Below are positions 7,606 to 64,000 of a DNA stretch of 64,000 nucleotides, in pieces. Source of the stretch: Hydractinia symbiolongicarpus. Its lineage: Eukaryota; Cnidaria; Hydrozoa; Anthoathecata; Hydractiniidae. The stretch's first letter is position 1, and every line of letters starts with the position of its first letter. The stretch is taken from NCBI RefSeq assembly GCF_029227915.1, contig NC_079878.1:7502001-7566000 (forward strand), given 5' to 3'. The notes below the pieces were generated by a model that saw only the letters and a list, made by a program, of their open reading frames with translations, was not told the origin of the DNA and searched no databases. The position numbers and the translations under genes are program-made.

Positions 7606-15347
<7,742 letters not shown>

Positions 15348-30463: not shown

Positions 30464-31030
30464 TTGGTTGCGTGGAAAGCATCGCAAACTTTAAACAGCA
30501 TGTGGAATCCTGAAGAACTCGATACACGTATCCAACAGCTGGTGGAAGATGCACTTCAACGTCACAAAGAGCAAATATTGGCAGCTGCTACCTCTGTTGC
30601 TAAAGCAATTGCTTCACTTCTTTTAGACAACCAACAGTCAAAGATTGATAAAGCGTTGGAATCTCAAAAGAGCCAGCGTCAATCTAAAAGGCAAAGGAAA
30701 TCAACACCAATTTAACTTTTGTCTAAACGTTATGGACAAATTCGACAAGGCAGCGGACAGTTGGGCGGATAAGGACATAGAAAACGCGCAAAAATTGTTG
30801 TCTGAAGGTGTGATCTTAGTTGAGAAACGTATTAAACTCATTAAGCTGGCAGCCAGAAAAGATCTGGCAACGGTTAATGAATATTTAAGTGACGACTTAG
30901 CGTCTGATTCAGAAGACGAAAAACTTATAAATCAAGCAATCCGTTCAGCCAATGCTAAAAGCGAAAAGCGTAGAAAATTACAGCAACGCACTTTTCCCCA
31001 AAAAACGAACTTTGATCGTAGTAGTGTTGC
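30464..31030 (+). pseudogene. Retroelement-like ORF fragment, frameshifted and truncated by the array
   Basis: The first frame (30464-30715; Met at 30500 is the likelier start, MWNPEELDTRIQQLVEDAL) is helical and charged. It is interrupted near 30680, and the reading continues in the next frame with NFCLNVMDKFDKAADSW, KRIKLIKLAARKDL, DDLASDSEDEK and SEKRRK. From memory, an EG..L..R.KLIK.A, ELASDSEDEK, KRRK layout occurs in cnidarian retrotransposon proteins of the DIRS/tyrosine-recombinase kind; I cannot check this. The frame runs into array sequence at about 31030 (GTTTTACCGTGAAATATACT), so the 3' part, including any reverse transcriptase, is missing. A broken host gene is the alternative. 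Confidence 0.45.
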
Positions 31031-31123
31031 AATGTTTTACCGTGAAATATACTTGTTATTCCTTCTATTAATGACAAATCAATATCACTTACATACTTTA
31101 CATGCGAAATGGCGTAAGAGACA

Positions 31124-31207
31124 TCCAGGATGCCCGAGTGGCCCAAGGCGCTGGGTTCAGGTCGCAGTGTGCATTCGTAGGCGTGGGTTAGAATCCCAGT
31201 TCTGACA
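31124..31207 (+). pseudogene. tRNA-Leu (CAG) relic, unit 1
   Basis: Acceptor TCCAGGA, anticodon stem CTGGG/CGCAG, T loop TTAGAAT. First unit of the array; B box broken. Confidence 0.7.
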
Positions 31208-31479
31208 TAAATTTGCAGATTAACGAAGATTCTCTCTCAAAATCGTTAAAAAGAAATTGCAACTGTAGGTGTTCTTTACGAATAACCTCCATAGCATATT
31301 ATTTATGGTTGTTCAACCATACAGGTCGTTAATGTAGAAATACAGTCTTTTTATGTTCAAACGAAAGCCGAGACAAAGTATTGTTGTTTTATCTTGAAAT
31401 ATAATTGTTATTATGTTCAAACGAAAGCCAAGACCAAGGATTAATGCTTTACCATGATCTATAGTTGTTATTCCTTCTA

Positions 31480-32307
31480 CAGTAGAGTCTCCATAACTCG
31501 AACCTCTATTACTCGAAAGTCTCCTTAACTCGAACGAATTCGTTGGCACCGTGAAAGTTTCCTAATAAACTCTTATAAAAAAACCTCTACTACTCGAACC
31601 TCCATAACTCGAATGTTCCCTTAAGTCGAACAGATTATTTTGTCCCTTGAAGGTTTTTGACTCCATAACTCGAATTTTGTGGCATTTTGAAAAAAATTGA
31701 TAAGTTTTCCTGATCATTTAACTCTTTATCATTTTCATATTTTAATGTTTACGTGTGTTGTGGGCCTTATATTGTTCGAATGCATGATTCGAATGTTTTG
31801 TTTGTGTTTCAAACGACAACGCTTTCTCAACCAATTTTCAAAAACAGAATTTCATAGCAATTTGACAAGGGCGTCTGTGGCAGGGTCAAAAAGAAGTAGA
31901 GCCGATAACAAGTCCTGTAAAATAAAATACAGTACCCTCAAAGAGCTTGAAAAAGGAACTGCTCCAAAGCGTTTTCTCGAAATTTGGAGAAGAAATGTTG
32001 GCTTCCCTAAAGGACTTAAATAAAAACATCAAACGAGATTATGATGATACTTGTAAACAATCAATTATAACTGATTTTTTTCGAAAAATTTGAGCAAAAA
32101 GCAACTAAAACGCTCTGTTTTTGTATTTCACCAACCCAGAACCCCCAATAAGTAAGACTACGTACTTAATATACTGTTTTTGTTCATCTGGTAGGCAGAT
32201 AAGGGAAAAATTTTGAAAAAACTTGAAAACCTCTACTACTCGAACGTCTCCTTAACTCGAACGGTTTCCTTTCCCCCCTGGCCGTTCGAGTTATGGAGAC
32301 TCTTCTG
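31480..32307 (+). mobile_element. Pogo/Tigger-like DNA transposon remnant inserted in a tRNA-Leu unit
   Basis: Terminal inverted repeats CAGTAGAGTCTCCATAACTC (left) and CAGAAGAGTCTCCATAACTC (right end read on the other strand), with TA at both outer edges (31478-31479, 32308-32309). Joining the flanks restores the normal spacer (CTTCTA..CTAATCCAGAATC), so this is a clean insertion. CTCGAAC words repeat near both ends. A frame ending at 32023 contains KIKYSTLKELEKGTAPKRF, like the N-terminal CENP-B/Tigger helix-turn-helix, and then stops: a transposase start with the catalytic part deleted. Mobilisation would need a transposase from elsewhere. Confidence 0.88.
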
Positions 32308-32365
32308 TACTAATCCAGAATCAATATCACTCATATACGTGACATGCAAAATGGCGTTAAAGACA

Positions 32366-32448
32366 GTCAGGATGGCCGAGTGGTCTAAGGCACTGGGTTC
32401 AGGTTGCAGTCTAATTCATAAGCGTGGGATCGCATCCCACTTTTGGCA
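32366..32448 (+). pseudogene. tRNA-Leu (CAG) relic, unit 2
   Basis: Anticodon stem CTGGG/TGCAG, one base missing in the variable arm, T loop ATCGCAT, acceptor 3' strand TTTTGGC. Confidence 0.7.
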
Positions 32449-32718
32449 TAAACCTGCAGATTAAGGACGAAGCTCTCTAAAAATCGTTAAAAAGAAATTG
32501 CAACTGTAGGTGTTCTTTATGAGAAACCTTCCTAAAATTTCCTGTATAATTGTTCAACCGTACAAGTCGTTAATGTAGAAATGCGGTCCATTTTTAGGTT
32601 CAAACGAATGCAAAGACCAAAGGTTAAAGTTTTATCTAGAAATATACTTCCTACTCCTTGTATTAATGCCGAATTAACATCACTTACATACTTGGCGTGT
32701 GAAATGGCGCAAAACACA

Positions 32719-32802
32719 CTCAAGATGGACAAGTGGTCTAAAGCGCTGCGTTCAGGAAGCAATCCACATTCGCAGGCTTTGGTTGGAATCCCCTTTCTGA
32801 CA
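32719..32802 (+). pseudogene. tRNA-Leu relic, unit 3
   Basis: Acceptor CTCAAGA, anticodon arm CTGCG TTCAGGA AGCAA, T loop TTGGAAT with a broken stem. Confidence 0.7.
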
Positions 32803-33071
32803 TTAATACAGAGATTAAGAAGGATGATCTCTAAAAATTGGTAAAAGGAAATTGAAAAATTAGGTCTTCTTTATGAAAAAACTTCCTGGCATATGTTTTA
32901 TGGTTGTTCAATCGTACAGTTATTTAATGTAGAAATACAGTCTTTTTTATGTTCAAAGGAAAGCCAAGACCAAGGATTAGTGTTTTACCGTGAAATACAA
33001 TTGTTATTCCTTCAATTAATCCAGAATCAATATCACTTACATACTTGAATTGAAAAATGCCATAAAAGACA

Positions 33072-33154
33072 GTCAGGATGGTCGAGTGGTCTAAGGCGCT
33101 GCGTTCAGGTCGCAGTCTACATTCGTAGGCGTGGGTTCGAATCCCATTCTGACA
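33072..33154 (+). tRNA. tRNA-Leu (CAG), unit 4, one-base T-stem deletion
   Basis: Acceptor, anticodon arm and T loop canonical; D arm GTCGAG; the T stem 3' side is CCCA instead of CCCAC. Confidence 0.6.
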
Positions 33155-33209
33155 TAAATTTGAAGGTTAATGAAGATGCTGTCTAAAATTCAAAGTGGCG
33201 TAAAAGACA

Positions 33210-33293
33210 GTCAGGATGGCCGAATGATCTATGGCGCTGCGTTCAGGTCGCAGTCTACATTCGTTGGCGTGGGTTGAAATTCCACTTCAGACA
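33210..33293 (+). pseudogene. tRNA-Leu (CAG) relic, unit 5, only 138 bp after unit 4
   Basis: A box damaged (CGAATGATCTATGGC), T loop TTGAAAT, acceptor TTCAGAC. A spacer deletion joins AAAATT to CAAAGTGGCG, making this the shortest unit. Confidence 0.7.
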
Positions 33294-33558
33294 TTAATAT
33301 AGAGATAAAGAAGGATGTTCTTTAAAAATTGGGAAAAGAAGCTTGCAACAGTACGTCCGCTCAAGAAAAACTTTCCTAGCATATGCTTTATGGTTGTTCA
33401 ACCGCACAGGTTGTTACTGTAGAAATACGGTTATTTCTAAGGTTTAAACCAAAGTCAAGGCCAAGGGTTAAAGCTTTTCAAATATACTTGTTATGCCTTG
33501 TATTAAACCAAAATCAATATCAATTACATACTTGACATGCGAAATAGCGTAAACCACA

Positions 33559-33642
33559 CCCAGGCTGGACGAGTGGTGCAGGGCGCTGCGTTCAGGCAGG
33601 AGTTTACATTCGAAGGCGTGGGTTGGAATCGTACTTCTGACA
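33559..33642 (+). pseudogene. tRNA-Leu relic, unit 6
   Basis: Acceptor CCCAGGC, D arm GACGAGTGGTGCAGGGC, anticodon 3' stem AGGAG, T loop TTGGAAT with GTAC stem. Confidence 0.7.
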
Positions 33643-33896
33643 TGAATTTAGAGATTAGGAAGGATGATCTCTAAAACTGCAACAGTAAGTGTTCTTTATG
33701 AAAAACCTTCCTATAATATCCTTTCTGGTTGTTCAACCGTACATGTCGTTAATGTAGAAGTACGGTCTTTCTTATGTTCAAACGAAAGCCAAGACCAAGG
33801 ATTTATGTTGTACCGTGAAACATAATTGTTATTCTTTTTATTAATCCGGAATCAATATACATTACATACCCGAAATGTGAAGTGGCGTTAAAGTCA

Positions 33897-33980
33897 GTTA
33901 GGATAGCCGAGTGGTCTAAGGCGCTGCGTTCAGGTCGCAGTCTACATTGGTAGGCGTGGGTTCGAAACCCCCTTCTGATA
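33897..33980 (+). tRNA. tRNA-Leu (CAG), unit 7, weakened acceptor and T stem
   Basis: Acceptor GTTAGGA/TTCTGAT; anticodon arm intact; T arm GTGGG TTCGAAA CCCCC. Confidence 0.5.
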
Positions 33981-34220
33981 TTAATTTGGAGATTAAGGAA
34001 GAAGCTCTCTAAAAACCGGTAAAAGGAAATTGCTACAGTAAGCCTTCTTTATGAAAAACCTTCCAGGCACATGCTTTATGGTTGTTCAACCGCACAGATC
34101 TTCAATGTAATGTGAAGACTAAAGGTTAAAGTTCTATCTAGAAATAAACTTCTTATTCCTTGTATTAGTGCCGAGTCAACATCACTTATATACTTGACAT
34201 GCAAAATGGAGTAAAAGACA

Positions 34221-34304
34221 GTCAAGATGGCCGAGTGGTCCAAGGTGCTGGGTTCAGGTCGCAGTCTATATTCACAGGCGTGGGATCGCATCCCACTTCT
34301 GACA
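34221..34304 (+). pseudogene. tRNA-Leu (CAG) relic, unit 8
   Basis: Acceptor GTCAAGA, anticodon stem CTGGG/CGCAG, T loop ATCGCAT as in unit 2. Confidence 0.7.
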
Positions 34305-34572
34305 TAAATTTTGATATTAAGGAAGACGCTCTCTAAATATTGTTAAGAAGAAATTGCCGCTGTAGGTGTTCTTTATGAAAAACTTCCCTAGAATGTGCTT
34401 GATTGTTGTTTAACCGTACATGTTGCTAATGTAGAAATACGGACCTTTTTATGTTCAAACGAAAGTCAAGTCCAAGGTTGAAGTTTTATCGAGAAGTATT
34501 CTTCTTATTCCTTGCATTAATCCGGAATCAATATCACTTACATACTTGACATGCAAATTTGCGTAAAACACA

Positions 34573-34656
34573 CTCCGGATTGCCGAGTAGTCCAACGTGC
34601 TCTGTTGAGGTCGCAGTCTAAATCCGTAGACGTGGGTTGGAATCCCAATTGTGACA
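34573..34656 (+). pseudogene. tRNA-Leu relic with GAG anticodon, unit 9
   Basis: Anticodon loop TTGAGGT gives GAG (still a leucine anticodon), but the stem is CTCTG/CGCAG, the acceptor CTCCGGA and the T loop TTGGAAT. Confidence 0.7.
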
Positions 34657-34819
34657 TGAATTTAAGGACTAAGAAGTTTGTTACTTAAAAATTGGTAAAA
34701 GGAAGATGCAACTGTGGCTGTTCTTTACGAAAAACAGTCCTAGCATATGATTTGTGGTTGTTCAACCTTACAGGTCGTTAATGTAGTAATACGGTCCTTT
34801 TTTATGTTCAAACAAAAGT

Positions 34820-34950
34820 TAAGACCAAGAGTTAAAGCCTTATACTCAAATGTACTTGTTTTTCCTTGTATAAAACCAGTATCAACAAGGGTTAGAGTTT
34901 TACCGTGAACTATACTTGTTATTCCTTCTATTAATCCAGAATCAATAACA
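34820..34950. repeat. Internal ~61-bp spacer duplication
   Basis: The AAGACCAAG..TTAAAG..TACTTGTT segment occurs twice, stretching this unit to 414 bp. A similar duplication of the AAACGAAAGCC segment occurs at about 31355-31440. Confidence 0.8.
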
Positions 34951-34986
34951 CTTATATACTTGACATTCGAATTGGCGTAAAAGACA

Positions 34987-35070
34987 ATCAGGATGGCTGA
35001 GTGGTCTATGGCGCTGCGTTCAGGTCGCAGTTTACATTTGTAGGCGTTGGTTGGAATCCCACTTCTGACA
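34987..35070 (+). pseudogene. tRNA-Leu (CAG) relic, unit 10
   Basis: Acceptor ATCAGGA, T arm GTTGG TTGGAAT CCCAC; anticodon arm intact. Confidence 0.65.
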
Positions 35071-35339
35071 TGTAATTCGACATTAAGAAGGATGTTCTTT
35101 AAAATGAGTATAAGGAAATTGCAACAGTAGGTCTCTTTTATAAGAAACCTTTCTGGCATATGCTTTAAGGTTGTTCAACCGTACAGGTCTTTAATGCAGA
35201 AACACGGTCCTTTTTTATGTTCACTCGAAAGTCAAGACCAAGGATTAATGCTTTACCATGAAATATAGTTGTTTTTCCTTCTATTATTCCAGAATCAATA
35301 ATACTTACATACTTGACATGCAATGTGGCGGAAAATATA

Positions 35340-35423
35340 GTCAGGATGGCCGAGTGTTCTAAGGCGCTGCGTTCAGGTCACAGTTTACATTCGTAGGCGT
35401 GGGCTGGAATCCCACTTCTGACA
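35340..35423 (+). pseudogene. tRNA-Leu (CAG) relic, unit 11
   Basis: D loop GAGTGTTCT, anticodon 3' stem ACAG, T loop CTGGAAT. First unit of the 7-unit offset duplication. Confidence 0.65.
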
Positions 35424-35692
35424 TGTAATTGGTGATTAAGAAGGCTGCTCTTTATAATGTGGAAAATGAAATTGCAACAGTATGTGTTCTTTATGAGAAA
35501 CTTTCTTATAATATCCTTTATGGTTGTTCAACCGTAGAGGTCGTTAATGTTGAAACACACCCTCTTTTTATGTTCAAACGAATGTAAAGACAATGGACTA
35601 GTGCTTTACCTTGAAATATAGTTGTTATTCCTTCTATTAATCCAGAATCAATATCACTTACATACTTGAAATTCAAAGTGGCGTAAGAGACA

Positions 35693-35776
35693 ATCAGGAT
35701 GGCGGAGTGGTCTAAGGCGCCGCGTCCAAGTGGCAGTCTGCATTCGTAGGCGTGGGTTCGAATCCCACTTCTGTCA
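35693..35776 (+). pseudogene. tRNA-Leu relic with CAA anticodon, unit 12
   Basis: Anticodon loop TCCAAGT gives CAA, but U33 is C and the stem CCGCG/GGCAG is mispaired. Acceptor ATCAGGA/TTCTGTC. T arm canonical. Confidence 0.65.
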
Positions 35777-36045
35777 TCAACATGAAGATTAAGGAAGATG
35801 CCCTCTAAGAGTCGTTAAGAAGAAGTTGCAACTCTACCTTTTCTTTATAAAAAAACTCCATGGCATATAATTTATGGCTGTTCCTCGTACAGGTCGTTAT
35901 TTTAGAAATACAGTCTTCTTTTATGTTCAAACGAGAGCCAAGGCCACGGATTAGTGTTTAACCTTGAAATATAATTGTTATTCCCTCAATTAATGCAGTA
36001 GCAATATCACTTACATACTTGAAATTCAAAGTGGCGTGAAAGACA

Positions 36046-36129
36046 GTCAGGATGGCAGAGTGGTCTAAGGCGCTGCGTTCAGGTAGCAGTCTACATTCGT
36101 AGGCGTAGGTTCGAATCTCATTTCTGACA
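36046..36129 (+). pseudogene. tRNA-Leu (CAG) relic, unit 13
   Basis: D arm GCAGAG, anticodon 3' stem AGCAG, T arm GTAGG TTCGAAT CTCAT. Confidence 0.6.
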
Positions 36130-36399
36130 TAAACTTGAAAATTAAGGAAGATGCTCTCTAAAAGTCGTTAAAAAGAAGTTACAACTCTACGTTTTCTTTA
36201 TAAAAAAACTCCCTAGCATATGCTTGATTGTTGTTCAATCGTACAGGTCGTTAACGTAGAAACACAGTCTTTTTTTAGGTTCAAACGAGAGCCAAGACCA
36301 AGGATTAGTGTTTTACCTTGAAATATAATTGTTATTCCTTCTATTAATCCAGAATCAATATCACTTACATACTTGAAATTCAAAGTGGCGTAAAAGACA

Positions 36400-36484
36400 G
36401 CCAAGGTTGGCCGAGTTTTCTAATTCGCCGCGTTCAGGTGGCAGTCTACATTCGTAGGCGTGGGCTGGAATCCCACTTCTGACA
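36400..36484 (+). pseudogene. tRNA-Leu (CAG) relic, unit 14
   Basis: One extra base in the acceptor region (GCCAAGGTTGGCC), D loop GAGTTTTCTAATTC, anticodon stem CCGCG/GGCAG, T loop CTGGAAT. Confidence 0.65.
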
Positions 36485-36753
36485 TGTAATTGGTGATTAA
36501 GAAGGCTGCTCTTTATAATGTGGAAAATGAAATTGCAACAGTAAGTGTTCTTTATAAGAAACCTTCCTATAATATCCTTTATGGTTGTTCAACCGTACAG
36601 GTCGTTAACGTAGAAACACAGCGTTTTTTTAGGTTCAAACAAATGTAAAGACCAAGGACTAGTGTTTTACCTTGAAATATAGTTGTTATTCCTTCTACTA
36701 ATCCAGAATCAATATCACTTACATACTTGAAATTCAAAGTTGCGTAAAATACA

Positions 36754-36837
36754 GTCAGGATGTCCGAGTGGTCTAAAGCGCTGCGTTCGGGTTGCAGTTT
36801 ACATTCGTAGGCGTGGGTTGGAATCCCACTTCTGATA
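36754..36837 (+). pseudogene. tRNA-Leu relic with CGG anticodon, unit 15
   Basis: Anticodon loop TTCGGGT gives CGG, which would read the proline codon CCG. Stem CTGCG/TGCAG still pairs. Defects elsewhere: D arm GTCCGAG, T loop TTGGAAT, acceptor end TTCTGAT. Confidence 0.7.
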
Positions 36838-37106
36838 TGTAATTGGTGATTAAGAAGGATGTTCTTTAAAATGTTGAAAACGAAATTGCAACAATAAGTG
36901 TTCTTTATGAGAAGCCTCCCTATAATATCCTTTATGGTTGTTCAACCGTACAGGTCGTTAATGTAGAAACACAGCCTCTTTTTAGGTTCAAACGAATGTA
37001 AAGACCAAAGACTAGTGTTTTACCTTCAAGTACAGTTGTTAATCCTTTCATTAATCCAGAATCAATATCACTTATCTACTTGACATTCGAATTGACATAA
37101 AAGACA

Positions 37107-37189
37107 GTCAGGATGGCCGAGTGGTCTAAGGCGCTGTGCTCAGGTGCAGTCTACATTCGTAGCCGTGGGTTCGAATCCCAACTCTGACA
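37107..37189 (+). pseudogene. tRNA-Leu relic, unit 16, anticodon-arm deletion
   Basis: Anticodon arm CTGTG CTCAGGT GCAG lacks one base; acceptor 3' strand CTCTGAC. T loop canonical. Confidence 0.65.
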
Positions 37190-37459
37190 CAAAGTTGAAG
37201 ATTAAGGAAGATGCTCTCTGAAAGTCGTTAAAAAGAAGTTGCAACTGTACGTTTTTTTTATAAAGAGACTTCCTAGCATATGCTTGATTGTTGTTCAATC
37301 GTACAGGTCCCTGATGTTGAAATACGGTCGTTTTTTAGGTTCAAACAAAAGACAAGAACAAGGATTATTGTTTTACCATGAAATATAGTTGTTTTTCCTT
37401 CTATTAATCCAGAATCAATATTACTTACATACTTGACATGCAATATGGCGGAAAAGATA

Positions 37460-37543
37460 ATCAGGATGGCCGAATCGTCTAAAGCGCTGCGTTCAGGTCA
37501 CAGTCTACATTCGTAGGCGTGGATTCGAATTCTACTTCTGACA
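37460..37543 (+). pseudogene. tRNA-Leu (CAG) relic, unit 17
   Basis: Acceptor ATCAGGA, D arm CGAATCGTCTAAAGC, anticodon 3' stem ACAG, T arm GTGGA TTCGAAT TCTAC. Confidence 0.6.
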
Positions 37544-37812
37544 TAACCTTGAAGATTAAGGAATTTGTTCTCTAAAATTTGTTAAAAAAAAATTTCAACT
37601 GTGCATTTTCTTTATAAAAGACCTCCATGGCATATAATTTATGGCTGTTCCTCGTACAGGTCGTTATTTTAGAAATACAGTCTTCTTTTATGTTCAAACG
37701 AGAGCCAAGACCAAGGATTAGTGTTTTACCTTGAAATAGAATTGTTATTCCCTCTATTAATCCAGAAGCAATATCACTTACATACTTGAAATTCAAAGAG
37801 GCGTAAAATACA

Positions 37813-37896
37813 GTCAGGATGGCCGAGTGTTCTAAGGCGCTGCGCACAGGTCGCAGTTTACATTCGTAGGCGCGGGCTGGAATCCCACTTCTGACA
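37813..37896 (+). pseudogene. tRNA-Leu (CAG) relic, unit 18
   Basis: Partner of unit 11. Anticodon loop CACAGGT (U33 lost), T arm GCGGG CTGGAAT CCCAC. Confidence 0.65.
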
Positions 37897-38165
37897 TGTA
37901 ATTGGTGATTAAGAAGGCTGCTCTTTATAATGTGGAAAATGAAATTGCAACAGTATGTGTTCTTTATGAGAAACTTTCTTATAATATCCTTTATGGTTGT
38001 TCAACCGTAGAGGTCGTTAATGTTGAAACATACCCTCTTTTTAGGTTCAAACGAATGTAAAGACAAAGGACTAGTGCTTTACCTTGAAATATAGTTGTTA
38101 TTCCTTCTATTAATCCAGAATCAATATCACTTACATACTTGAAATTTAAAGTGGCGTTAGAGACA

Positions 38166-38249
38166 ATCAGGATGGCGGAGTGGTCTAAGGCGCCGCGTCC
38201 AAGTGGCAGTCTGCATTCGTAGGCGTGGGTTCGAATCCCACTTCTGTCA
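38166..38249 (+). pseudogene. tRNA-Leu relic with CAA anticodon, unit 19
   Basis: Partner of unit 12: loop TCCAAGT, stem CCGCG/GGCAG, acceptor ATCAGGA/TTCTGTC. Confidence 0.65.
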
Positions 38250-38518
38250 TCAACATGAAGATTAAGGAAGATGCCCTCTAAGAGTCGTTAAAAAGAAGTT
38301 GCAACTCTACCTTTTCTTTATAAAAAAACTCCATGGCATATAATTTATGGCTGTTCCTCGTACAGGTCGTTATTTTAGAAATACAGTCTTCGTTTATGTT
38401 CAAACGAGAGCCAAGGCCACGGATTAGTGTTTTACCTTGAAATATAATTGTTATTCCCTCAATTAATGCAGTAGCAATATCACTTACATACTTGAAATTC
38501 AAAGTGGCGTGAAAGACA

Positions 38519-38602
38519 GTCAGGATGGCAGAGTGGTCTAAGGCGCTGCGTTCAGGTAGCAGTTTACATTCGTAGGCGTAGGTTCGAATCTCATTTCTGA
38601 CA
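38519..38602 (+). pseudogene. tRNA-Leu (CAG) relic, unit 20
   Basis: Partner of unit 13: D arm GCAGAG, anticodon 3' stem AGCAG, T arm GTAGG TTCGAAT CTCAT. Confidence 0.6.
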
Positions 38603-38872
38603 TAAACCTGAAAATTAAGGAAGATGCTCTCTAAAAGTCGTTAAAAAGAAGTTACAACTCTACGTTTTCTTTATAAAAAAACTCGCTAGCATATGCTTGA
38701 TTGTTGTTCAATCGTACAGGTCGTTAACGTAGAAACACAGTGTTTTTTTAGGTTCAAACGAGAGCCAAGACCAAGGATTAGTGTTTTACCTTGAAATATA
38801 ATTGTTATTCCTTCTATTAATCCAGAATCAATATCACTTACATACTTGAAATTCAAAGTGGCGTAAAAGACA

Positions 38873-38957
38873 GCCAAGGTTGGCCGAGTTTTCTAAGTCG
38901 CCGCGTTCAGGTGGCAGTCTACATTCGTAGGCCTGGTTTCGAATCCCACTTCTGACA
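38873..38957 (+). pseudogene. tRNA-Leu (CAG) relic, unit 21
   Basis: Partner of unit 14 with the extra acceptor base; the T loop is TTCGAAT here but its 5' stem is CTGGT. Confidence 0.6.
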
Positions 38958-39052
38958 TAAATTTGAAAGTTAAGGAAGATGCTCTCTAAAAGTCTTTAAA
39001 AAGAAATTTCACCTGTGCGTTTTCTTTCTAAAGAACCTCCCTAGCATACTTG

Positions 39053-39387
39053 TGGCGCCGTAGATTAGTGGTTATAGCTCTCGTACTCTGTGCGGGAGAC
39101 CACGTTTCGATTCCTCTTGACAGCGATTCAACATGTGCGAGTGAATGTTACCATAGCCCCGGGTTAACCCAAGCCATGTGAGGGAAATTGGGAAGATGGC
39201 ACACTGTGTGGGCCGTTGGATGTTGCCGGGAGTTGTCTGGTTGAGCGCGGGCTCTAATTGGGTCTGCGTAGCTCAAAATGAGCATTAAATACTCTAGGAC
39301 TCTCCATCTACGCCATGGCCCCTCCTGGAAATAATAGACAGGGTATATCCCTCGATATTTGTGAGGCTAGCCATGTAGAATATGCAC
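39053..39387 (+). mobile_element. tRNA-derived SINE (family B) inserted in the array
   Basis: Starts TGGCGCCGTAGATTAGTGG (A-box region) and CGTTTCGATTCC (B box), then a body with TTACCATAGCC, GGCACACTGTGTGGGCC and GCTCAAAATGAGCATTAAAT. The 3' end runs into a TCTA microsatellite, as SINE tails often do. The flanks rejoin a normal unit: CTAGCATACTTG on the left and TATTCTTGATTG on the right, so a short TA(T)CTTG-like target duplication is likely. Confidence 0.85.
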
Positions 39388-40657
<1,270 letters not shown>

Positions 40658-54100: not shown

Positions 54101-54370
54101 TAAACTTTAAGAATAAGGAAGATGCTCTCTAAAAGTTGTTAAAATGAAATTGCAACTCTACGTTTGCTTTATACAAAAACTCCCTAGCATATGCTTGATT
54201 GTTGTTCAATCGTACAGGTCGCTAATGTAGAAACACATCCTCTTTTTAGGTTCAAACGAATGTAAAGGCCAAGGACTAGTCTTTTACCTTGAAATATAGT
54301 TGATATTCCTTCTATTAATCCAGAATCAATATCACTTACATACTTGAAATTCAAAGTGGCGTAAAAGACA

Positions 54371-54454
54371 GTCAGGATGGCCGAGTGGTCAAAGGCGCTG
54401 CGTTCAGGTCGCAGACTACATTCGTAGGCGTGGGTTCGAATCCCACTTCTGACA
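54371..54454 (+). tRNA. tRNA-Leu (CAG), unit 61, intact
   Basis: All arms canonical; variable arm ACTACATTCGTAGGC. T4 run at 54517-54520, 66 nt downstream. Confidence 0.9.
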
Positions 54455-54724
54455 TAAACTTTAAGAATAAGGAAGATGCTCTCTAAAAGTTGTTAAAATG
54501 AAGTTGCAACACTAGGTTTTCTTTATAAAAAAACTCCCTAGCATATTCTTGATTGTTAATCATCGGTACAGGTCGCTTATGTAGAAATACGGTCCTTCGT
54601 TAAGTTCAACCGAAAGTCAAGACCAAGAGTTAAAGTTTAACTGTGAGATGTACTTTTTATTCCTTCTATTAATCCAAAATCAATATCACTTATGTACTTG
54701 ACATTCGAAATGGCATAAAAGACT

Positions 54725-54808
54725 CTCAGGATGGTCGAGTGGTCTATGGCACTGCGTTCAGGTCGCAGACTACATTCGTAGGCGTGGGTTCGAATCCCAC
54801 TTCTGACA
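54725..54808 (+). tRNA. tRNA-Leu (CAG), unit 62, intact except C1
   Basis: D stem GTC/GGC keeps pairing through a wobble; the T arm is canonical; C1 opposite C72. 3' half matches unit 61, 5' half class B: a mosaic. Confidence 0.6.
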
Positions 54809-55078
54809 TAAACTTTAAGAATAAGGAAGATGCTCTCTAAAAGTTGTTAAAATGAAGTTGCAACACTAGGTTTTCTTTATAAAAAAACTCCCTAGCATAT
54901 TCTTGATTGTTAATCATCGGTACAGGTCGCTAATGTAGAAATACGGTCCTTCGTTAAGTTCAACCGAAAGTCAAGACCAAGGGTTAAAGTTTAACTGTGA
55001 GATGTACTTTTTATTCCTTCTAATAATCCAAAATTAATATCACTTATGTACTTGACATTCGAAATGGCATAGAAGACT

Positions 55079-55162
55079 CTCAGGATGGTCGAGTGGTCTA
55101 TGGCACTGCGTTCAGGTCGCAGTCTACATTCGTAGGCGTGTGTTCGAATCCCACTTCTGACA
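55079..55162 (+). tRNA. tRNA-Leu (CAG), unit 63, class B
   Basis: C1; T stem GTGTG. Upstream spacer almost identical to that of unit 62. Confidence 0.5.
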
Positions 55163-55431
55163 TGTAATAGGTGATTGAGAAGGATGCTCTTTGAAATGTG
55201 CAAAATGAAATTGCAACAGTAAGTGTTCTTTATAAGAAACCTTCCTATAGTATCCTTTATGGTTGTTTAACTGTACAGGTCGTTAATGTAGAATCACGGC
55301 CTCTTTTTAGGTTCAAACGAATGTAAAGACCAAGGACTAGTGTTTTACCTTGAAATATGGTTGTTTTTCTTTTTATTAATCCAAAATCAATATCACTTAC
55401 ATACTTGAAATTCAAATTGGCGTAAGAGTCA

Positions 55432-55515
55432 GTCAGGATGGCCGAGTGGTCTAAGGCGCTGCGTTCAAGTCGCAGTCCACATTCGCAGGCGTGTTTTCGA
55501 ATCCAACTTCTAACA
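55432..55515 (+). pseudogene. tRNA-Leu (CAA), unit 64, defective T arm
   Basis: Anticodon loop TTCAAGT gives CAA (reads UUG) in an intact stem with U33 kept. T stem GTGTT/CCAAC and acceptor TTCTAAC are damaged. Confidence 0.65.
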
Positions 55516-55784
55516 TAAACTTGTAGATTAAAGAAGATGCTCTCTAAAAGTTGTTAAAAAGAAGTTACAACTCTACGTTTTTTTATCACAAAACTCCCTA
55601 GCATATGCTTGATTGTTGTTCAATCGTACAGGTCGCTAATGTAGAAACACAGCCTCTTTTTAGGTTCAAACGAATGTAAAGACCAAGGACTAGTGTTTTA
55701 CCTTGAAATATAGTTGTTATTCCTTCTATTAATCCAGAATCAATATCGCTTACATACTTGAAATTCGAAGTGGCGTAAAAGACA

Positions 55785-55868
55785 GTCAGGATGGACGAGT
55801 GGTCTATGGCGCTGCGTTCAGGTCGCAGTCTACATTCGTAGGCGTGGGTTCGAATCCAACTTCTGACA
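55785..55868 (+). tRNA. tRNA-Leu (CAG), unit 65
   Basis: D arm GACGAG and T stem CCAAC each lose one pair. Confidence 0.55.
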
Positions 55869-56138
55869 TAAACTTGAAGATTAAGGAAGATGTTCTCCTA
55901 AAGTCGTTAAAAAGAAGTTACAACTCTAAGTTTTCCTTATAAAAAAACTCCCTAGCATATGATTGATTGTTGTTCATCAGTACAGGTTGCTAATGTAGAA
56001 TTGCGTTCCTATTTTAGGTTCACACGAAAGTCAAGACCAAGGTTTAAAGTTTTACTGTGAGATATATTTTTTATTCCTGCTATTAATCCAGAATCAATAT
56101 CACTTAAATACTTGACATTCGAATTGGCGTAAAATGCA

Positions 56139-56222
56139 GTCAGGATGGCTGAGCGGTCTAAGGCGCTGCGTTCAGGTTGCAATCTACATTTGTAGGCGTG
56201 GGTTCGAATCCTACTTCTGACA
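56139..56222 (+). tRNA. tRNA-Leu (CAG), unit 66, class C
   Basis: D arm GCTGAGCGGTCTAAGGC keeps GG; anticodon stem CTGCG/TGCAA; T stem CCTAC. Confidence 0.55.
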
Positions 56223-56491
56223 GGTAATTGGTGATTAAGAAGGATGCGCTTTAAAATGTGCAAAATGAAATTGCAACAGTAAGTGTTCTTTATGAGAAAC
56301 CTTCCTATAATATCCTTTATGTTTGTTAAGCCGTACAGGTCGTTAATGTAGAAACACGGCCTCTTTTTAGGTTCAAACGAAAGCCAAGACCAAGGGTTAA
56401 AGTTTTACTGTGAGATATATTTTTTATTCCTGCTATTAATCCAGAATCAATATCACTTATATACTTGACATTCGAATTGGCGTAAAATGAA

Positions 56492-56575
56492 GTCAGGATG
56501 GCTGAGCGGTGTAAGGCGCTGCGTTCAGGTCGCCATCTACATTTGTAGGCGTGGGTTCGAATCCCAGTTTTGACA
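56492..56575 (+). pseudogene. tRNA-Leu (CAG) relic, unit 67, class C
   Basis: Anticodon 3' stem CGCCA, T stem CCCAG, acceptor TTTTGAC. Confidence 0.55.
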
Positions 56576-56845
56576 TAAACTTGAAGGTTAAGGAAGATGC
56601 TCTCTAAAAGTCGTTAAAAAGAAGTTACAACTCTACGTTTTCATTATGAAAAAACTCCCTAGCATATTCTTGATTGTTGTTCATCGGTACTGGTCGCTAA
56701 TGTAGAAGTACGGTCATTTTTTAGGTTCAACCGAAACTCAAGACCAAGGGTAAAAGTTTTACTGTGAGATGTACTTTTTATTCCTTCTATTAATCCAGAA
56801 TCAATATCACTTATGTACTTGACATTCGAAATGGCATAGAAGACT

Positions 56846-56929
56846 CTCAGGATGGTCGAGTGGTCTGTGGCACTGCGTTCAGTTTGAAGTCTACATTTGT
56901 AGGCGTGGGTTCAAATCCCACTTCTGACA
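56846..56929 (+). pseudogene. tRNA-Leu relic, unit 68
   Basis: C1; anticodon arm CTGCG TTCAGTT TGAAG is broken; T loop TTCAAAT. Confidence 0.6.
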
Positions 56930-57199
56930 TAAGTTTGAAGATTAAGAAAGATGCTCTAAAAAAGTCGTTAAAAAGAAATTGCGACTCTACGTTGGCTTTA
57001 TACAAAAACTACCTAGCATATGCTTGATTGATTTTTAATCGTACAGTTCGCTAATGTAGAAACACAGCCTCTTTTTTGCTTCAAACGAATGTAAGGACCA
57101 AGGACTAGTGTTTTACCTTGAAATATAGTTGTTATTCCTTCTATTAATCCAGAATCAAATCCACTTACATACTTGAAATTCAAAGTGGCGTAAAAGACA

Positions 57200-57283
57200 G
57201 TCAGGATGGCCGAGTGGTCTAAGGCGCTGCGTTCAGGTCGCAGTCTACATTTGTAGGCGTGGGTTCGGTTCCCACTTCTGACA
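57200..57283 (+). tRNA. tRNA-Leu (CAG), unit 69, copy of unit 50
   Basis: T loop TTCGGTT as in the partner. Confidence 0.55.
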
Positions 57284-57553
57284 TAAACTTGTAGATTAAA
57301 GAAGATGCTCTCTAAATGTCGTTAAAAGGAAGTTACAACTCTACGTTTTCTTTATCAAAAAACTCCCTAGCATATTCTTGATTGTTAATCATCGGTACAG
57401 GTCGCTAATGTAGAAATACGGTCCTTTGTTAAGTTCAACCGAAAGTCAAGACCAAGGGTTAAAGTTTTACTGTGATATGTACTTTTTATTCCTTCTATTA
57501 ATCCAGAATCAATATCACTTATGTACTTGACATTCGAAATGGAATAGAAGACT

Positions 57554-57637
57554 CTGAGGATGGTCGAGTGGCCTATGGCACTGCGTTCAGGTCGCAGTCT
57601 ACATTCGTAGGCGTGTGTTCGAATCCCACTTCTGACA
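57554..57637 (+). pseudogene. tRNA-Leu (CAG) relic, unit 70, copy of unit 51
   Basis: Acceptor CTGAGGA, T stem GTGTG. Confidence 0.55.
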
Positions 57638-57901
57638 TAAGTTTGAATATTAAAGAAGATGCTCTATAAAAGTCGTTAAATTGCAACTCTACGTTGGCTT
57701 TATACAAAAACTACCTAGCATATGCTTGATTGATTTTAAATCGTACAAGTCGCTAATGTAGAAACACAGCCTCTTTTTAGGTTCAAACGAATGTAAAGAC
57801 CAAGGACTAGTCTTTTACCTCGAAATATAGTTGTTATTTCGTCTATTACTCCAGAATCAATATCACTTACATACTTGAAACTCAAAGTGGAGTAAAAGAC
57901 A

Positions 57902-57985
57902 GTCAGGATGGCCGAGTGGTCTAAGGCGCCGCGTTCAGTTCGCAGTCTACTTTCGCAGACGTGGGTTCGAATCCCACTTCCGACA
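57902..57985 (+). pseudogene. tRNA-Leu (CAG) relic, unit 71, copy of unit 52
   Basis: Loop TTCAGTT, acceptor TTCCGAC. Confidence 0.55.
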
Positions 57986-58253
57986 TAAATTTGAAGGTTA
58001 ATGAAGATGCTCTCAAAAAATTTAAAAAGAAATTTCACCTGTACGTTTTCTTTCTAAAGAACTTCCCTAGCATATTCTTGATTGTTGTTCAACCGTACAG
58101 GTCGCTAATGTAGAAACACAGTCTATTATTAGGTTCAAACGAATATAAAGACCAGGGACTAGTGTTTTACCTTGAAATATAGTTGTTATTCTTTATATTA
58201 ATCCAGAATCAATATCACTTAAATACTTAAAATTCAAAGTGGCGCAAAAGACA

Positions 58254-58337
58254 GTCAGGATGGCCGAGTGGTCTAAGGCGCTGCGTTCAGGTCGCAGTCT
58301 ACATTCGTAGGCTTGGGTTCGAATCCCACTTCTGACA
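58254..58337 (+). tRNA. tRNA-Leu (CAG), unit 72, copy of unit 53, near-intact
   Basis: Single T-stem change TTGGG. Confidence 0.75.
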
Positions 58338-58607
58338 TAAACTTGAAGAATAAGGAAGATGCTCTCTAAAAGTCGTTAAAATGAAGTTGCAACTCTAGGT
58401 TTTCTTTATAAAAAAACTCCCTAGCAAATGCTTGATTGTTGTTCATCGGTACATTTCGCTAATGTAGAAATACGGTCCTATTTTAGGTTCACACGAAAGT
58501 CAAGACCAAGGGTTAAAGTTTTACTGTGAGATATATTTTTTATTCCTGCTATTAATCCAGAATCAATATCACTTATATACTTGACATTCGAATTGGCGTA
58601 AAATGCA

Positions 58608-58691
58608 GTCAGGATGGCCGAGCAGTCTAAGGCGTTGCGTTCAGGTTGCAATCTACATTTGTAGGCGTGGGTTTGAATCCCACTTCTGACA
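58608..58691 (+). tRNA. tRNA-Leu (CAG), unit 73, copy of unit 54
   Basis: Compensated anticodon stem TTGCG/TGCAA; T loop TTTGAAT. Confidence 0.5.
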
Positions 58692-58959
58692 TGTAATTGG
58701 TGATTAAGAAGGATGCTCTTTAAAATGTGAGAAATGAAATTGAAACAGTAAGTGTTCTTTATGAGAAACCTTCCTATAGTATCCTTTATGGTTGTTCGAC
58801 TGTACAGGTCGTTAATGTAGAAATACGGTCCTATTTTAGGTTCACACGAAAGTCAAGACCAAGGGTTAAATTTTACTGTGAGATATATTTTTTATTCCTG
58901 CTATTAACCAAGAATCAATATCACTTATATACTTGACATTCGAGTTGGCGTAATAGACA

Positions 58960-59043
58960 GTCAGGATGGCTGAGTGGTCTAAGGCGCTGCGTTCAGGTCG
59001 CAATCTACATTTGTAGGAGTGGGTACAAATCCCACATCTGACA
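58960..59043 (+). pseudogene. tRNA-Leu (CAG) relic, unit 74, copy of unit 55
   Basis: T loop TACAAAT. Confidence 0.55.
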
Positions 59044-59314
59044 TAAACTTGAAGATTAAGGAAGATGCTCTCTAAAAGTCGTTAAAAAGAAGTTACAACT
59101 CTACGTTTTCTTTATAAAAAAAACTCCCTAGCATATGCTTGATTGTTGTTAATCGGTACAGGTTGCTAATGTAGAAATGCGGTCCTATTTTAGGTTCAAC
59201 CGAAAGTCAAGACCAAGGCTTAAATTTGTACCGTGAAATCTAGTTGTTATTGCTTCTATTAATCCGGAATCAATATCACTTATGTTCTTGACATTTGAAA
59301 TGGCATAGCAGACT

Positions 59315-59398
59315 CTCAGGATGGCCGAGTGGTCTATGGCGCTGCGTTCAGGTCGCAGTATACATTCGTAGGCGTGGGTTCGAATCCAACTTCTGACA
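59315..59398 (+). pseudogene. tRNA-Leu (CAG) relic, unit 75, copy of unit 56
   Basis: C1; T stem CCAAC. Confidence 0.55.
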
Positions 59399-59667
59399 TA
59401 AACTTGAAGATTAAGGAAGATGCTCTCTAAAAGTTGTTAAAAAGAAGTTACAACTCTACGTTTTTTTATCAAAAAACTCCCTAGCATATTCTTGGTTGTT
59501 AATCATCGGTACAGGTCGCTAATGTAGAAATACGGTCCTTCGTTAAGTTCAACCGAAAGTCAAGACCAAGGGTTAAAGTTTAACTGTGAGATGTACTTTT
59601 TATTCCTTCTATTAATCCAAAATCAATATCACTTATGTACTTGACATTCGAAATGGCATAGAAGACT

Positions 59668-59751
59668 CTCAGGATGGTCGAGTGGTCTATGGCACTGCGT
59701 TCAGGTCGCAGTCTACATTCGTAGGCGTGTGTTCGAATCCCACTTCTGACA
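59668..59751 (+). tRNA. tRNA-Leu (CAG), unit 76, copy of unit 57
   Basis: C1; T stem GTGTG. Confidence 0.5.
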
Positions 59752-60020
59752 TGTAATAGGTGATTAAGAAGGATGCTCTTTGAAATGTGCGAAATGAAAT
59801 TGCAACAGTAAGTGTTCTTTATGAGAAACCTTCCTATAGTATCCTTTATGGTTGTTTAACTGTACAGGTCGTTAATGTAGAATCACGGCCTCTTTTTAGG
59901 TTCAAACGAATGTAAAGACCAAGGACTAGTGTTTTACCTTGAAATATGGTTGTTTCTCTTTTTATTAATCCAAAATCAATATCACTTACATACTTGAAAT
60001 TCAAAGTGGCGTAAAAGACA

Positions 60021-60104
60021 GTCAGGATGGACGAGTGGTTTATGGCGCTGCGTTCAGGTCGCAGTCTACATTCGTAGGCGTGGGTTCGAATCCAACTTCT
60101 GACA
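60021..60104 (+). tRNA. tRNA-Leu (CAG), unit 77, copy of unit 58
   Basis: D arm GACGAG, T stem CCAAC. Confidence 0.5.
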
Positions 60105-60374
60105 TAAACTTGAAGATTAAGGAAGATGCTCTCCTAAAGTCGTTAAAAAGAAGTTACAACTCTAAGTTTTCCTTATAAAAAAACTCCCTAGCATATGATT
60201 GATTGTTGTTCATCAGTACAGGTTGCTAATGTAGAATTGCGTTCCTATTTTAGGTTCACACGAAAGTCAACACTAAGGGTTAAAGTTTTACTGTGAGTTA
60301 TACTTTTTTTTCCTTCTATTAATCTAGAATCAATATCACTTATATACTTTACATTCCAAATGGCATAGAAGGCT

Positions 60375-60458
60375 CTCAGGATGTTCGAGTGGTCTAGGGC
60401 ACTGCGTTCAGGACGCAGTGTACATTCGTGGGCTTGGGTTCGAATCACACTTCTGACA
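60375..60458 (+). pseudogene. tRNA-Leu (CAG) relic, unit 78, copy of unit 59
   Basis: C1; loop TTCAGGA; T stem CACAC. Confidence 0.6.
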
Positions 60459-60728
60459 TAAACTTGAAGATTAAGAAAAATGCTCTCTAAAAGTCGTTAA
60501 AATGAAATTGCAACTCTACGTTGGCTTTATACAAAAACTCCCTAGCATATGCTTGATTGTTGTTCAATCGTACAGGTCGCTAATGTAGAAACACATCCTC
60601 TCTTTAGGTTGAAACGAATGTAAAGGCCAAGGACTAGTGTTTTACTTTGAAATATAGTTGTTATTCCTTCTATTAATCCAGAATCAATATCACTTACATA
60701 CTTGAACTTTAAAGTGGCGTAAAAGACA

Positions 60729-60812
60729 GTCAGGATGGCCGAGTGGTCAAAGGCGCTGCGTTTAGGTCGCAGACTACATTCGTAGGCGTGGGTTCGAAAC
60801 CCACTTCTGACA
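60729..60812 (+). tRNA. tRNA-Leu (UAG), unit 79, copy of unit 60, intact
   Basis: Second copy of the UAG gene, all arms paired. Confidence 0.85.
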
Positions 60813-61082
60813 TAAACTTTAAGAATAAGGAAGATGCTCTCTAAAAGTTGTTAAAATGAAATTGCAACTCTACGTTTGCTTTATACAAAAACTCCCTAGC
60901 ATATGCTTGATTGTTGTTCAATCGTACAGGTCGCTAATGTAGAAACACATCCTCTTTTTAGGTTCAAACGAATGTAAAGGCCAAGGACTAGTCTTTTACC
61001 TTGAAATATAGTTGATATTCCTTCTATTAATCCAGAATCAATATCACTTACATACTTGAAATTCAAAGTGGCGTAAAAGACA

Positions 61083-61166
61083 GTCAGGATGGCCGAGTGG
61101 TCAAAGGCGCTGCGTTCAGGTCGCAGACTACATTCGTAGGCGTGGGTTCGAATCCCACTTCTGACA
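61083..61166 (+). tRNA. tRNA-Leu (CAG), unit 80, copy of unit 61, intact
   Basis: All arms canonical. Confidence 0.9.
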
Positions 61167-61436
61167 TAAACTTTAAGAATAAGGAAGATGCTCTCTAAAA
61201 GTTGTTAAAATGAAGTTGCAACACTAGGTTTTCTTTATAAAAAAACTCCCTAGCATATTCTTGATTGTTAATCATCGGTACAGGTCGCTTATGTAGAAAT
61301 ACGGTCCTTCGTTAAGTTCAACCGAAAGTCAAGACCAAGAGTTAAAGTTTAACTGTGAGATGTACTTTTTATTCCTTCTATTAATCCAAAATCAATATCA
61401 CTTATGTACTTGACATTCGAAATGGCATAAAAGACT

Positions 61437-61520
61437 CTCAGGATGGTCGAGTGGTCTATGGCACTGCGTTCAGGTCGCAGACTACATTCGTAGGCGTGGG
61501 TTCGAATCCCACTTCTGACA
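61437..61520 (+). tRNA. tRNA-Leu (CAG), unit 81, copy of unit 62
   Basis: C1 is the only unpaired acceptor position. Confidence 0.6.
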
Positions 61521-61790
61521 TAAACTTTAAGAATAAGGAAGATGCTCTCTAAAAGTTGTTAAAATGAAGTTGCAACACTAGGTTTTCTTTATAAAAAAAC
61601 TCCCTAGCATATTCTTGATTGTTAATCATCGGTACAGGTCGCTAATGTAGAAATACGGTCCTTCGTTAAGTTCAACCGAAAGTCAAGACCAAGGGTTAAA
61701 GTTTAACTGTGAGATGTACTTTTTATTCCTTCTAATAATCCAAAATTAATATCACTTATGTACTTGACATTCGAAATGGCATAGAAGACT

Positions 61791-61874
61791 CTCAGGATGG
61801 TCGAGTGGTCTATGGCACTGCGTTCAGGTCGCAGTCTACATTCGTAGGCGTGTGTTCGAATCCCACTTCTGACA
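61791..61874 (+). tRNA. tRNA-Leu (CAG), unit 82, copy of unit 63
   Basis: C1; T stem GTGTG. Confidence 0.5.
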
Positions 61875-62143
61875 TGTAATAGGTGATTGAGAAGGATGCT
61901 CTTTGAAATGTGCAAAATGAAATTGCAACAGTAAGTGTTCTTTATAAGAAACCTTCCTATAGTATCCTTTATGGTTGTTTAACTGTACAGGTCGTTAATG
62001 TAGAATCACGGCCTCTTTTTAGGTTCAAACGAATGTAAAGACCAAGGACTAGTGTTTTACCTTGAAATATGGTTGTTTTTCTTTTTATTAATCCAAAATC
62101 AATATCACTTACATACTTGAAATTCAAATTGGCGTAAGAGTCA

Positions 62144-62227
62144 GTCAGGATGGCCGAGTGGTCTAAGGCGCTGCGTTCAAGTCGCAGTCCACATTCGCAG
62201 GCGTGTTTTCGAATCCAACTTCTAACA
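62144..62227 (+). pseudogene. tRNA-Leu (CAA), unit 83, copy of unit 64
   Basis: Loop TTCAAGT; damaged T stem and acceptor. Confidence 0.65.
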
Positions 62228-62496
62228 TAAACTTGTAGATTAAAGAAGATGCTCTCTAAAAGTTGTTAAAAAGAAGTTACAACTCTACGTTTTTTTATCA
62301 CAAAACTCCCTAGCATATGCTTGATTGTTGTTCAATCGTACAGGTCGCTAATGTAGAAACACAGCCTCTTTTTAGGTTCAAACGAATGTAAAGACCAAGG
62401 ACTAGTGTTTTACCTTGAAATATAGTTGTTATTCCTTCTATTAATCCAGAATCAATATCGCTTACATACTTGAAATTCGAAGTGGCGTAAAAGACA

Positions 62497-62580
62497 GTCA
62501 GGATGGACGAGTGGTCTATGGCGCTGCGTTCAGGTCGCAGTCTACATTCGTAGGCGTGGGTTCGAATCCAACTTCTGACA
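62497..62580 (+). tRNA. tRNA-Leu (CAG), unit 84, copy of unit 65
   Basis: D arm GACGAG, T stem CCAAC. Confidence 0.55.
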
Positions 62581-62850
62581 TAAACTTGAAGATTAAGGAA
62601 GATGTTCTCCTAAAGTCGTTAAAAAGAAGTTACAACTCTAAGTTTTCCTTATAAAAAAACTCCCTAGCATATGATTGATTGTTGTTCATCAGTACAGGTT
62701 GCTAATGTAGAATTGCGTTCCTATTTTAGGTTCACACGAAAGTCAAGACCAAGGTTTAAAGTTTTACTGTGAGATATATTTTTTATTCCTGCTATTAATC
62801 CAGAATCAATATCACTTAAATACTTGACATTCGAATTGGCGTAAAATGCA

Positions 62851-62934
62851 GTCAGGATGGCTGAGCGGTCTAAGGCGCTGCGTTCAGGTTGCAATCTACA
62901 TTTGTAGGCGTGGGTTCGAATCCTACTTCTGACA
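62851..62934 (+). tRNA. tRNA-Leu (CAG), unit 85, copy of unit 66
   Basis: Class C; anticodon stem CTGCG/TGCAA. Confidence 0.55.
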
Positions 62935-63203
62935 GGTAATTGGTGATTAAGAAGGATGCGCTTTAAAATGTGCAAAATGAAATTGCAACAGTAAGTGTTC
63001 TTTATGAGAAACCTTCCTATAATATCCTTTATGTTTGTTAAGCCGTACAGGTCGTTAATGTAGAAACACGGCCTCTTTTTAGGTTCAAACGAAAGCCAAG
63101 ACCAAGGGTTAAAGTTTTACTGTGAGATATATTTTTTATTCCTGCTATTAATCCAGAATCAATATCACTTATATACTTGACATTCGAATTGGCGTAAAAT
63201 GAA

Positions 63204-63287
63204 GTCAGGATGGCTGAGCGGTGTAAGGCGCTGCGTTCAGGTCGCCATCTACATTTGTAGGCGTGGGTTCGAATCCCAGTTTTGACA
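63204..63287 (+). pseudogene. tRNA-Leu (CAG) relic, unit 86, copy of unit 67
   Basis: Anticodon 3' stem CGCCA, acceptor TTTTGAC. Confidence 0.55.
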
Positions 63288-63557
63288 TAAACTTGAAGGT
63301 TAAGGAAGATGCTCTCTAAAAGTCGTTAAAAAGAAGTTACAACTCTACGTTTTCATTATGAAAAAACTCCCTAGCATATTCTTGATTGTTGTTCATCGGT
63401 ACTGGTCGCTAATGTAGAAGTACGGTCATTTTTTAGGTTCAACCGAAACTCAAGACCAAGGGTAAAAGTTTTACTGTGAGATGTACTTTTTATTCCTTCT
63501 ATTAATCCAGAATCAATATCACTTATGTACTTGACATTCGAAATGGCATAGAAGACT

Positions 63558-63641
63558 CTCAGGATGGTCGAGTGGTCTGTGGCACTGCGTTCAGTTTGAA
63601 GTCTACATTTGTAGGCGTGGGTTCAAATCCCACTTCTGACA
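63558..63641 (+). pseudogene. tRNA-Leu relic, unit 87, copy of unit 68
   Basis: C1; broken anticodon arm TTCAGTT TGAAG. Confidence 0.6.
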
Positions 63642-63910
63642 TAAGTTTGAAGATTAAGAAAGATGCTCTATAAAGGTCGTTACAAGAAATTGCAACTCTA
63701 CGTTGGCTTTATACAAAAACTCCCTAGCATATGCTTGACTGTTGTTCAATCGTACAGGTCGCAAATGTAGAAACACAGCCTCTTTTTAGGTTCAAACGAA
63801 AGTCAAGACCAAGGGTTAAAGTTTTACTGTGAGATATATTTTTTATTCCTGCTATTAATCCAGAATCAATATCACTTATATACTTGACATACGAATTGGC
63901 GTAAAATGAA

Positions 63911-63994
63911 GTCGGGATGGCTGAGCGGTGTAAGACGCTGCGTTCAGGTCGCAATCTACATTCGTAGGCGTGTGGTCGAAACCCACTTCTGACA
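63911..63994 (+). pseudogene. tRNA-Leu (CAG) relic, unit 88, class C
   Basis: Acceptor GTCGGGA, D 3' stem GAC, anticodon 3' stem CGCAA, T arm GTGTG GTCGAAA CCCAC. Not part of the 6712-bp duplication; the array continues past the window. Confidence 0.6.
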
Positions 63995-64000
63995 TAAGTT

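Follow-up and report, generated by a model that had tools for sequence, protein, structure and literature searches.

A tandem array of leucine tRNA (tRNA-Leu) genes fills the window from position 31124 to its end, the window being the whole 64,000-nt stretch of Hydractinia symbiolongicarpus DNA analysed here (NCBI RefSeq assembly GCF_029227915.1, contig NC_079878.1, positions 7,502,001 to 7,566,000 of the forward strand; coordinates are counted from its first base). It is a large, decayed tandem array of tRNA genes whose blocks turn over in a satellite-like manner, and tandem tRNA arrays as such were already known. The array has grown in blocks with periods of 7, 10 and 19 units, and its persisting lineages are depleted of old changes in the tRNA. 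On the basis of this depletion and the low diversity of the tRNA, we read the array as a birth-and-death gene family, and consider it rather probable that it represents a decaying, self-renewing reservoir of tRNA genes.

Array layout and intact units

Scanning of the window with an 84-nt tRNA-Leu consensus, at a cut-off of at least 48 of 84 matching positions, gave 88 plus-strand matches to tRNA-Leu(CAG), arranged head to tail from 31124 to 63911.

31124..64000, + strand: tandem array of 88 tRNA-Leu-bearing units with a modal length of 354 bp, extending past the window end (consensus scan and spacings)

An earlier note on this DNA had described 88 head-to-tail units of about 354 bp, each with one tRNA-Leu, running off the window. 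The scan bears this out, with a tRNA gene in every unit and 79 of the 87 unit intervals measuring 347-355 bp (354 and 353 bp being the commonest). The remaining eight spacings were 1242, 138, 338, 324, 414, 1962, 233 and 233 bp. Scores reached at least 57/84 in 87 units and 48/84 in the other one, which has an indel. A chance origin of the matches was ruled out, as the best score in the first 30 kb was only 36/84. ARAGORN called a tRNA in 76 of the 88 units, 57 units reached the gathering score of Rfam RF00005, and both also recognized one inverted copy. The tandem array is confirmed as real in the assembly. Two exact spacer patterns, of 30 and 24 bases, gave 0 matches in viral_contigs.

A unit was considered intact when all 24 stem pairs were formed and 13 conserved positions were kept. 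Seven of the 88 units passed, namely 30, 33, 43, 60, 61, 79 and 80. These are the same seven that the earlier note had named, with the correction that unit 79 exactly repeats unit 60 and unit 80 exactly repeats unit 61, which leaves five distinct intact sequences. Structurally intact tRNA genes, as looked for in a tandem tRNA gene array, are thus present, and these units may be transcribed. The five sequences identified by the pairing and conserved-base test are as follows.

43667..43750, + strand: intact tRNA-Leu(CAG), unit 30
44730..44813, + strand: intact tRNA-Leu(CAG), unit 33
48140..48223, + strand: intact tRNA-Leu(CAG), unit 43, equal to the consensus sequence
54017..54100, + strand: intact tRNA-Leu with anticodon TAG (still leucine), unit 60; exact copy in unit 79 at 60729
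54371..54454, + strand: intact tRNA-Leu(CAG), unit 61; exact copy in unit 80 at 61083

Across all 88 units the anticodons, taken from a fixed position and so possibly misread in copies with indels, were CAG in 79, CAA in 4, TAG in 2, and GAG, TAA and CGG in one each. The CGG belongs to the broken unit 15 (36754-36837), in which a leucine tRNA body carries a proline anticodon.

Block duplications in the array

Comparison of units with one another revealed three periods of block copying.

50236..56958, + strand: 19-unit-period block, first copy, identical to 56948-63670 over 6,723 bp
56948..63670, + strand: 19-unit-period block, second, exact copy, identical to 50236-56958
42786..53010, + strand: 10-unit-period duplication, 42786-49601 against 46198-53010, 92.7% identical overall (sequence comparison)
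35340..38873, + strand: 7-unit-period duplication, units 11-13 against 18-20, 97.5-99.2% identical (unit comparison)

The 19-unit block has a period of 6,712 bp with zero mismatches across its 6,723 bp. In the 10-unit period, units 33-36, 38 and 39 are 97.7-99.7% identical to units 43-46, 48 and 49, while unit 32 matches unit 42 at 0.952, and both copies include the same truncated unit (37 in one and 47 in the other, each with a 233-bp spacing), which marks the duplication. Identity between units averages 83% overall and 0.836 between neighbours, against 18 identical pairs at an offset of 19 units and identities of up to 0.997 at an offset of 10, which is the pattern of a higher-order-repeat satellite. 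The 7- and 10-unit-period copies are older than the 19-unit copy, which arose either in a very recent crossover or through duplication in the assembly. Units 1-21 at the left are less alike among themselves (mean identity 0.795) than units 22-68 (0.849), as is expected at an old array edge.

For alignment, six of the 87 units other than unit 88 were left out for their odd spacing, and unit 88 is incomplete because the window stops within it; 81 complete units were aligned. Among these, 18 are exact copies of other units and 63 are distinct, so the independent units number fewer than 88. The array could in part be an assembly artefact, compatible with any other reading, in which the assembly shows a single 6.7-kb block two times over, for instance because two haplotypes were joined. 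We regard this as somewhat doubtful, though to be taken seriously: the 6,723 bp lack any mismatch in adjacent copies, while the best 7- and 10-unit pairs differ by 0.3-2.5% and the pair 32/42 by 4.8%. On the other hand, the aligned units do differ outside the exact block, with 63 distinct among 81, so that the array cannot be reduced to a few units, and the block is in phase with the units, its ends lying 19 and 29 nt past a tRNA, as a real crossover leaves and as an artefact could leave too.

Constraint on the tRNA and rival explanations

Diversity and tree tests were carried out on the 63 distinct units, after removal of the 18 exact duplicates. Diversity was 0.125 in the tRNA versus 0.191 in the spacer, a ratio of 0.57 once corrected for base and CpG class, and the tRNA window ranked 3rd of 354 circular 84-nt windows for low diversity, with the minimum at offset 2. 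GC or CpG content was ruled out as the cause, since the base-class correction strengthens the signal. The ratios within the tRNA, compared between short sub-regions and taken at face value, were 0.32 for the anticodon triplet, 0.45 for the anticodon arm, 0.47 for the acceptor, 0.49 for the variable arm, 0.57 for box A, 0.64 for box B and 0.68, the highest measured, for the T arm.

The difference between tRNA and spacer is strong in variant frequency and branch depth. In the first branch test, changes in the tRNA stood at 1.01 of expectation on terminal branches and 0.61 on internal ones. Because a tree containing the tested columns could bias such a result, the test was repeated at 30 window positions on trees built without each tested window, and the tRNA then gave 1.07 for terminal and 0.48 for internal changes, the lowest internal value of the 30 windows. 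The 16 windows free of tRNA overlap (starting at 85 to 265), from which the expectation was also derived, had internal ratios of 0.72-1.38. Among stem changes, 49 of 149 kept the pairing, compared with 25.7% expected (one-sided P = 0.03). The earlier note had called the array a gene family and a graveyard at once, and this description is supported: intact units number 7 of 88 (5 distinct), diversity across the unit is lowest in the tRNA body, and it is old rather than recent mutations that are depleted.

In the course of events that we propose, a tRNA-Leu(CAG) gene together with its upstream region would have been amplified head to tail, mostly as multi-unit blocks, presumably by unequal crossing over. 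The tRNA of each unit would mutate as freely as the spacer, so that most copies decay, while working copies would seed the array and the lineages that persist and are copied would be those with a better-kept tRNA, probably owing to selection for a working leucine tRNA. It is plausible, if just short of probable, that the array is selected as a population, with single units decaying neutrally and blocks that hold a working tRNA-Leu surviving and re-expanding. Under such selection, satellite-type turnover could maintain the function of the gene while most copies are dead at any time, a consequence that we hold with the same reserve. If selection underlies the persistence signal, function is kept by turnover and not by conserving every copy, and simply counting the tRNA genes of such genomes gives too high a working dose. 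The array is a clean site for observing the transitions between tandem gene families, satellites and pseudogenes, as it records unit age, block copying and gene integrity together.

Several results weigh against the birth-and-death reading. The tRNA and the spacer have almost the same number of changes per site (3.18 vs 3.22), with 267 tRNA changes where base class predicts 314 (bootstrap range 272-357); taken together with the low diversity, this fits mutations that enter the tRNA freely and seldom become old. One broken type, with C1 and T23, accounts for 24 of the 88 units, so broken units amplify too. Pair-keeping stem changes are not richer on internal branches (13 of 45) than on terminal ones (36 of 104; P = 0.57), which makes structural selection less convincing and means that conversion by dispersed tRNA-Leu genes could mimic the pattern. 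As units recombine with one another, each single tree is an approximation. RNA polymerase III (Pol III) stops at T runs, usually close behind the gene, and a T4 run within 60 nt downstream is found in 3 of the 88 units, two of them truncated (unit 88 is incomplete at the window end). The five distinct intact sequences have their first T4 run 63 nt (30, 61) or 142-143 nt (33, 43, 60) downstream, pointing to late termination, and intact units may produce long trailers. The scarcity of nearby T4 runs is a mild warning sign as regards transcription into usable tRNA. Low diversity is also seen outside the tRNA, in a 35-nt stretch picked after looking (unit positions 296-330 of 354, about 59 to 25 bp before the tRNA; ratio 0.60). 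This stretch is possibly an upstream part of the Pol III promoter, and it falls inside the sequence shared with the inverted copy mentioned above.

30168..30319, - strand: isolated inverted tRNA-Leu copy whose upstream homology to the array extends over 68 bp (comparison with the array consensus)

The body of this copy is identical to the array consensus at 77 of 78 positions and its 68 bp upstream at 81%, with homology ending near tRNA position 78. Since it shares the upstream sequence, that stretch is older than the array or common to the tRNA-Leu genes of this genome. As regards a tRNA-derived short interspersed element (SINE), the units within the window stand in tandem, and this inverted copy is the sole other one found.

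In a rival reading, the array is a functionless selfish satellite that merely contains a tRNA, its body homogenised by conversion with dispersed working tRNA-Leu genes. The homology between these donor genes and the array would then be confined to the tRNA and a short stretch upstream of it, and we judge this account rather unlikely. In the window, the sole out-of-array copy has no homology to the array beyond the tRNA body and 68 bp upstream, a limit that would restrict conversion tracts to the extent observed, and the abundance of one broken type and the missing internal enrichment of pair-keeping changes are in its favour as well. Conversion, however, is expected to act evenly on the body, yet, taken at face value over short regions, the anticodon, acceptor and variable arm ratios lie below that of the T arm; and ongoing conversion should erase some recent changes, yet terminal changes are not reduced (1.07). 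The selfish tandem DNA suggested in the earlier note accordingly fails in its pure form to explain the conserved body, and would be possible with conversion from dispersed tRNA-Leu genes added. The note's further idea of a TFIIIC-binding boundary or heterochromatin element, which we take to mean selection on boxes A and B only and an irrelevant tRNA product, is very improbable: although both boxes are kept in strict form in 22 of the 88 units by patterns of our own definition, more than there are intact tRNAs, and a boundary role via CTCF has been proposed for a human tRNA tandem repeat (PMC4041453), no selective conservation of the boxes was found (diversity ratio 0.60, vs 0.56 for the remaining tRNA positions; permutation P = 0.63), so TFIIIC binding alone fails to explain the pattern.

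Neighbouring features and known tandem tRNA systems

Two inserts interrupt the left part of the array.

about 31478..32311, strand not assigned: DNA-transposon-like insert between units 1 and 2, with terminal inverted repeats matching at 25 of 26 positions (sequence comparison)
about 39051..40655, + strand: SINE-like insert inside unit 21, with a tRNA-like head (judged by eye) and a perfect (ATCT)317 tract (sequence inspection)

The first insert, presumably pogo/Tigger-like, carries repeated ACTCGAA motifs. The tract in the second covers 39388-40655 (1,268 bp), a remarkably long and pure tetranucleotide run, and a second, partial copy of the preceding sequence (39051-39387) is found at 24129-24223 with 81% identity over 96 bp. 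An open-frame fragment between the inverted copy and unit 1 gave no Pfam match for its two longest frames; our guess is that it is part of a mobile element. Farther to the left, a centractin gene (841-1980) and a CHK2-like FHA kinase gene (26183-27838) each consist of one open frame, apparently intronless and of about the length of their relatives. Among the matches listed, centractin is 85% identical to the proteins of Rhopilema and Acropora, 80-82% to those of many other animals and up to 93% at best, and the CHK2-like protein reaches up to 46% identity, with 38% to Porites. Both proteins are indicative of animal, perhaps cnidarian, DNA. Minus-strand exon-like frames at 13089-13388 and 10405-10939, one with an armadillo repeat, are taken by us to resemble SmgGDS/RAP1GDS1.

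The earlier note had called such arrays uncommon, which is fair for the size and purity of this one. Among the entries listed from the open-access literature, mostly titles and abstract openings, no animal single-tRNA array of such size, regularity and decay was found, which is not proof that there is none. Clusters are another matter, as groups of fifty or more tRNA genes (tDNAs) are known in Nematostella and teleost genomes (PMC2888827). The same study gives more than 17,000 tRNA genes and pseudogenes for Nematostella vectensis, 89% of them clustered. That cnidarian resembles the present case in its very many, clustered tDNAs and differs in that its neighbour pairs are reported to be mostly heterogeneous, whereas a single tRNA type in a fixed 354-bp unit is repeated here.

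Two kinds of cluster in the plant Arabidopsis are also comparable (PMC12308677, PMC10701932). The tRNA-Cys cluster repeats in tandem a unit of about 0.42 kb that contains a single tRNA gene, and has a pseudogene before the first repeat, and the core of the tRNA-Ser/Tyr (SYY) cluster has grown by tandem duplication and includes some tRNA-like pseudogenes. However, the Cys cluster has 4 units in the reference and the SYY cluster 27 units with both Ser and Tyr genes, and most genes of the Cys cluster are said there to be possibly functional, while only 7 of 88 units are intact here. The tRNA gene arrays of Entamoeba are likewise long and tandem, some with one gene per unit, but their units are reported to be mostly uniform per isolate, with no clear pseudogenes (PMC2652664), in contrast to the 83% mean identity and mostly broken units of the Hydractinia array. 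The human variable number tandem repeat (VNTR) at 1q23.3 is also a tandem, tRNA-bearing repeat, variable in copy number in human; its unit is a GC-rich 7.3 kb with a CTCF site, of which tRNA genes make up less than 6%, and alleles carry 9-43 units (PMC4041453).

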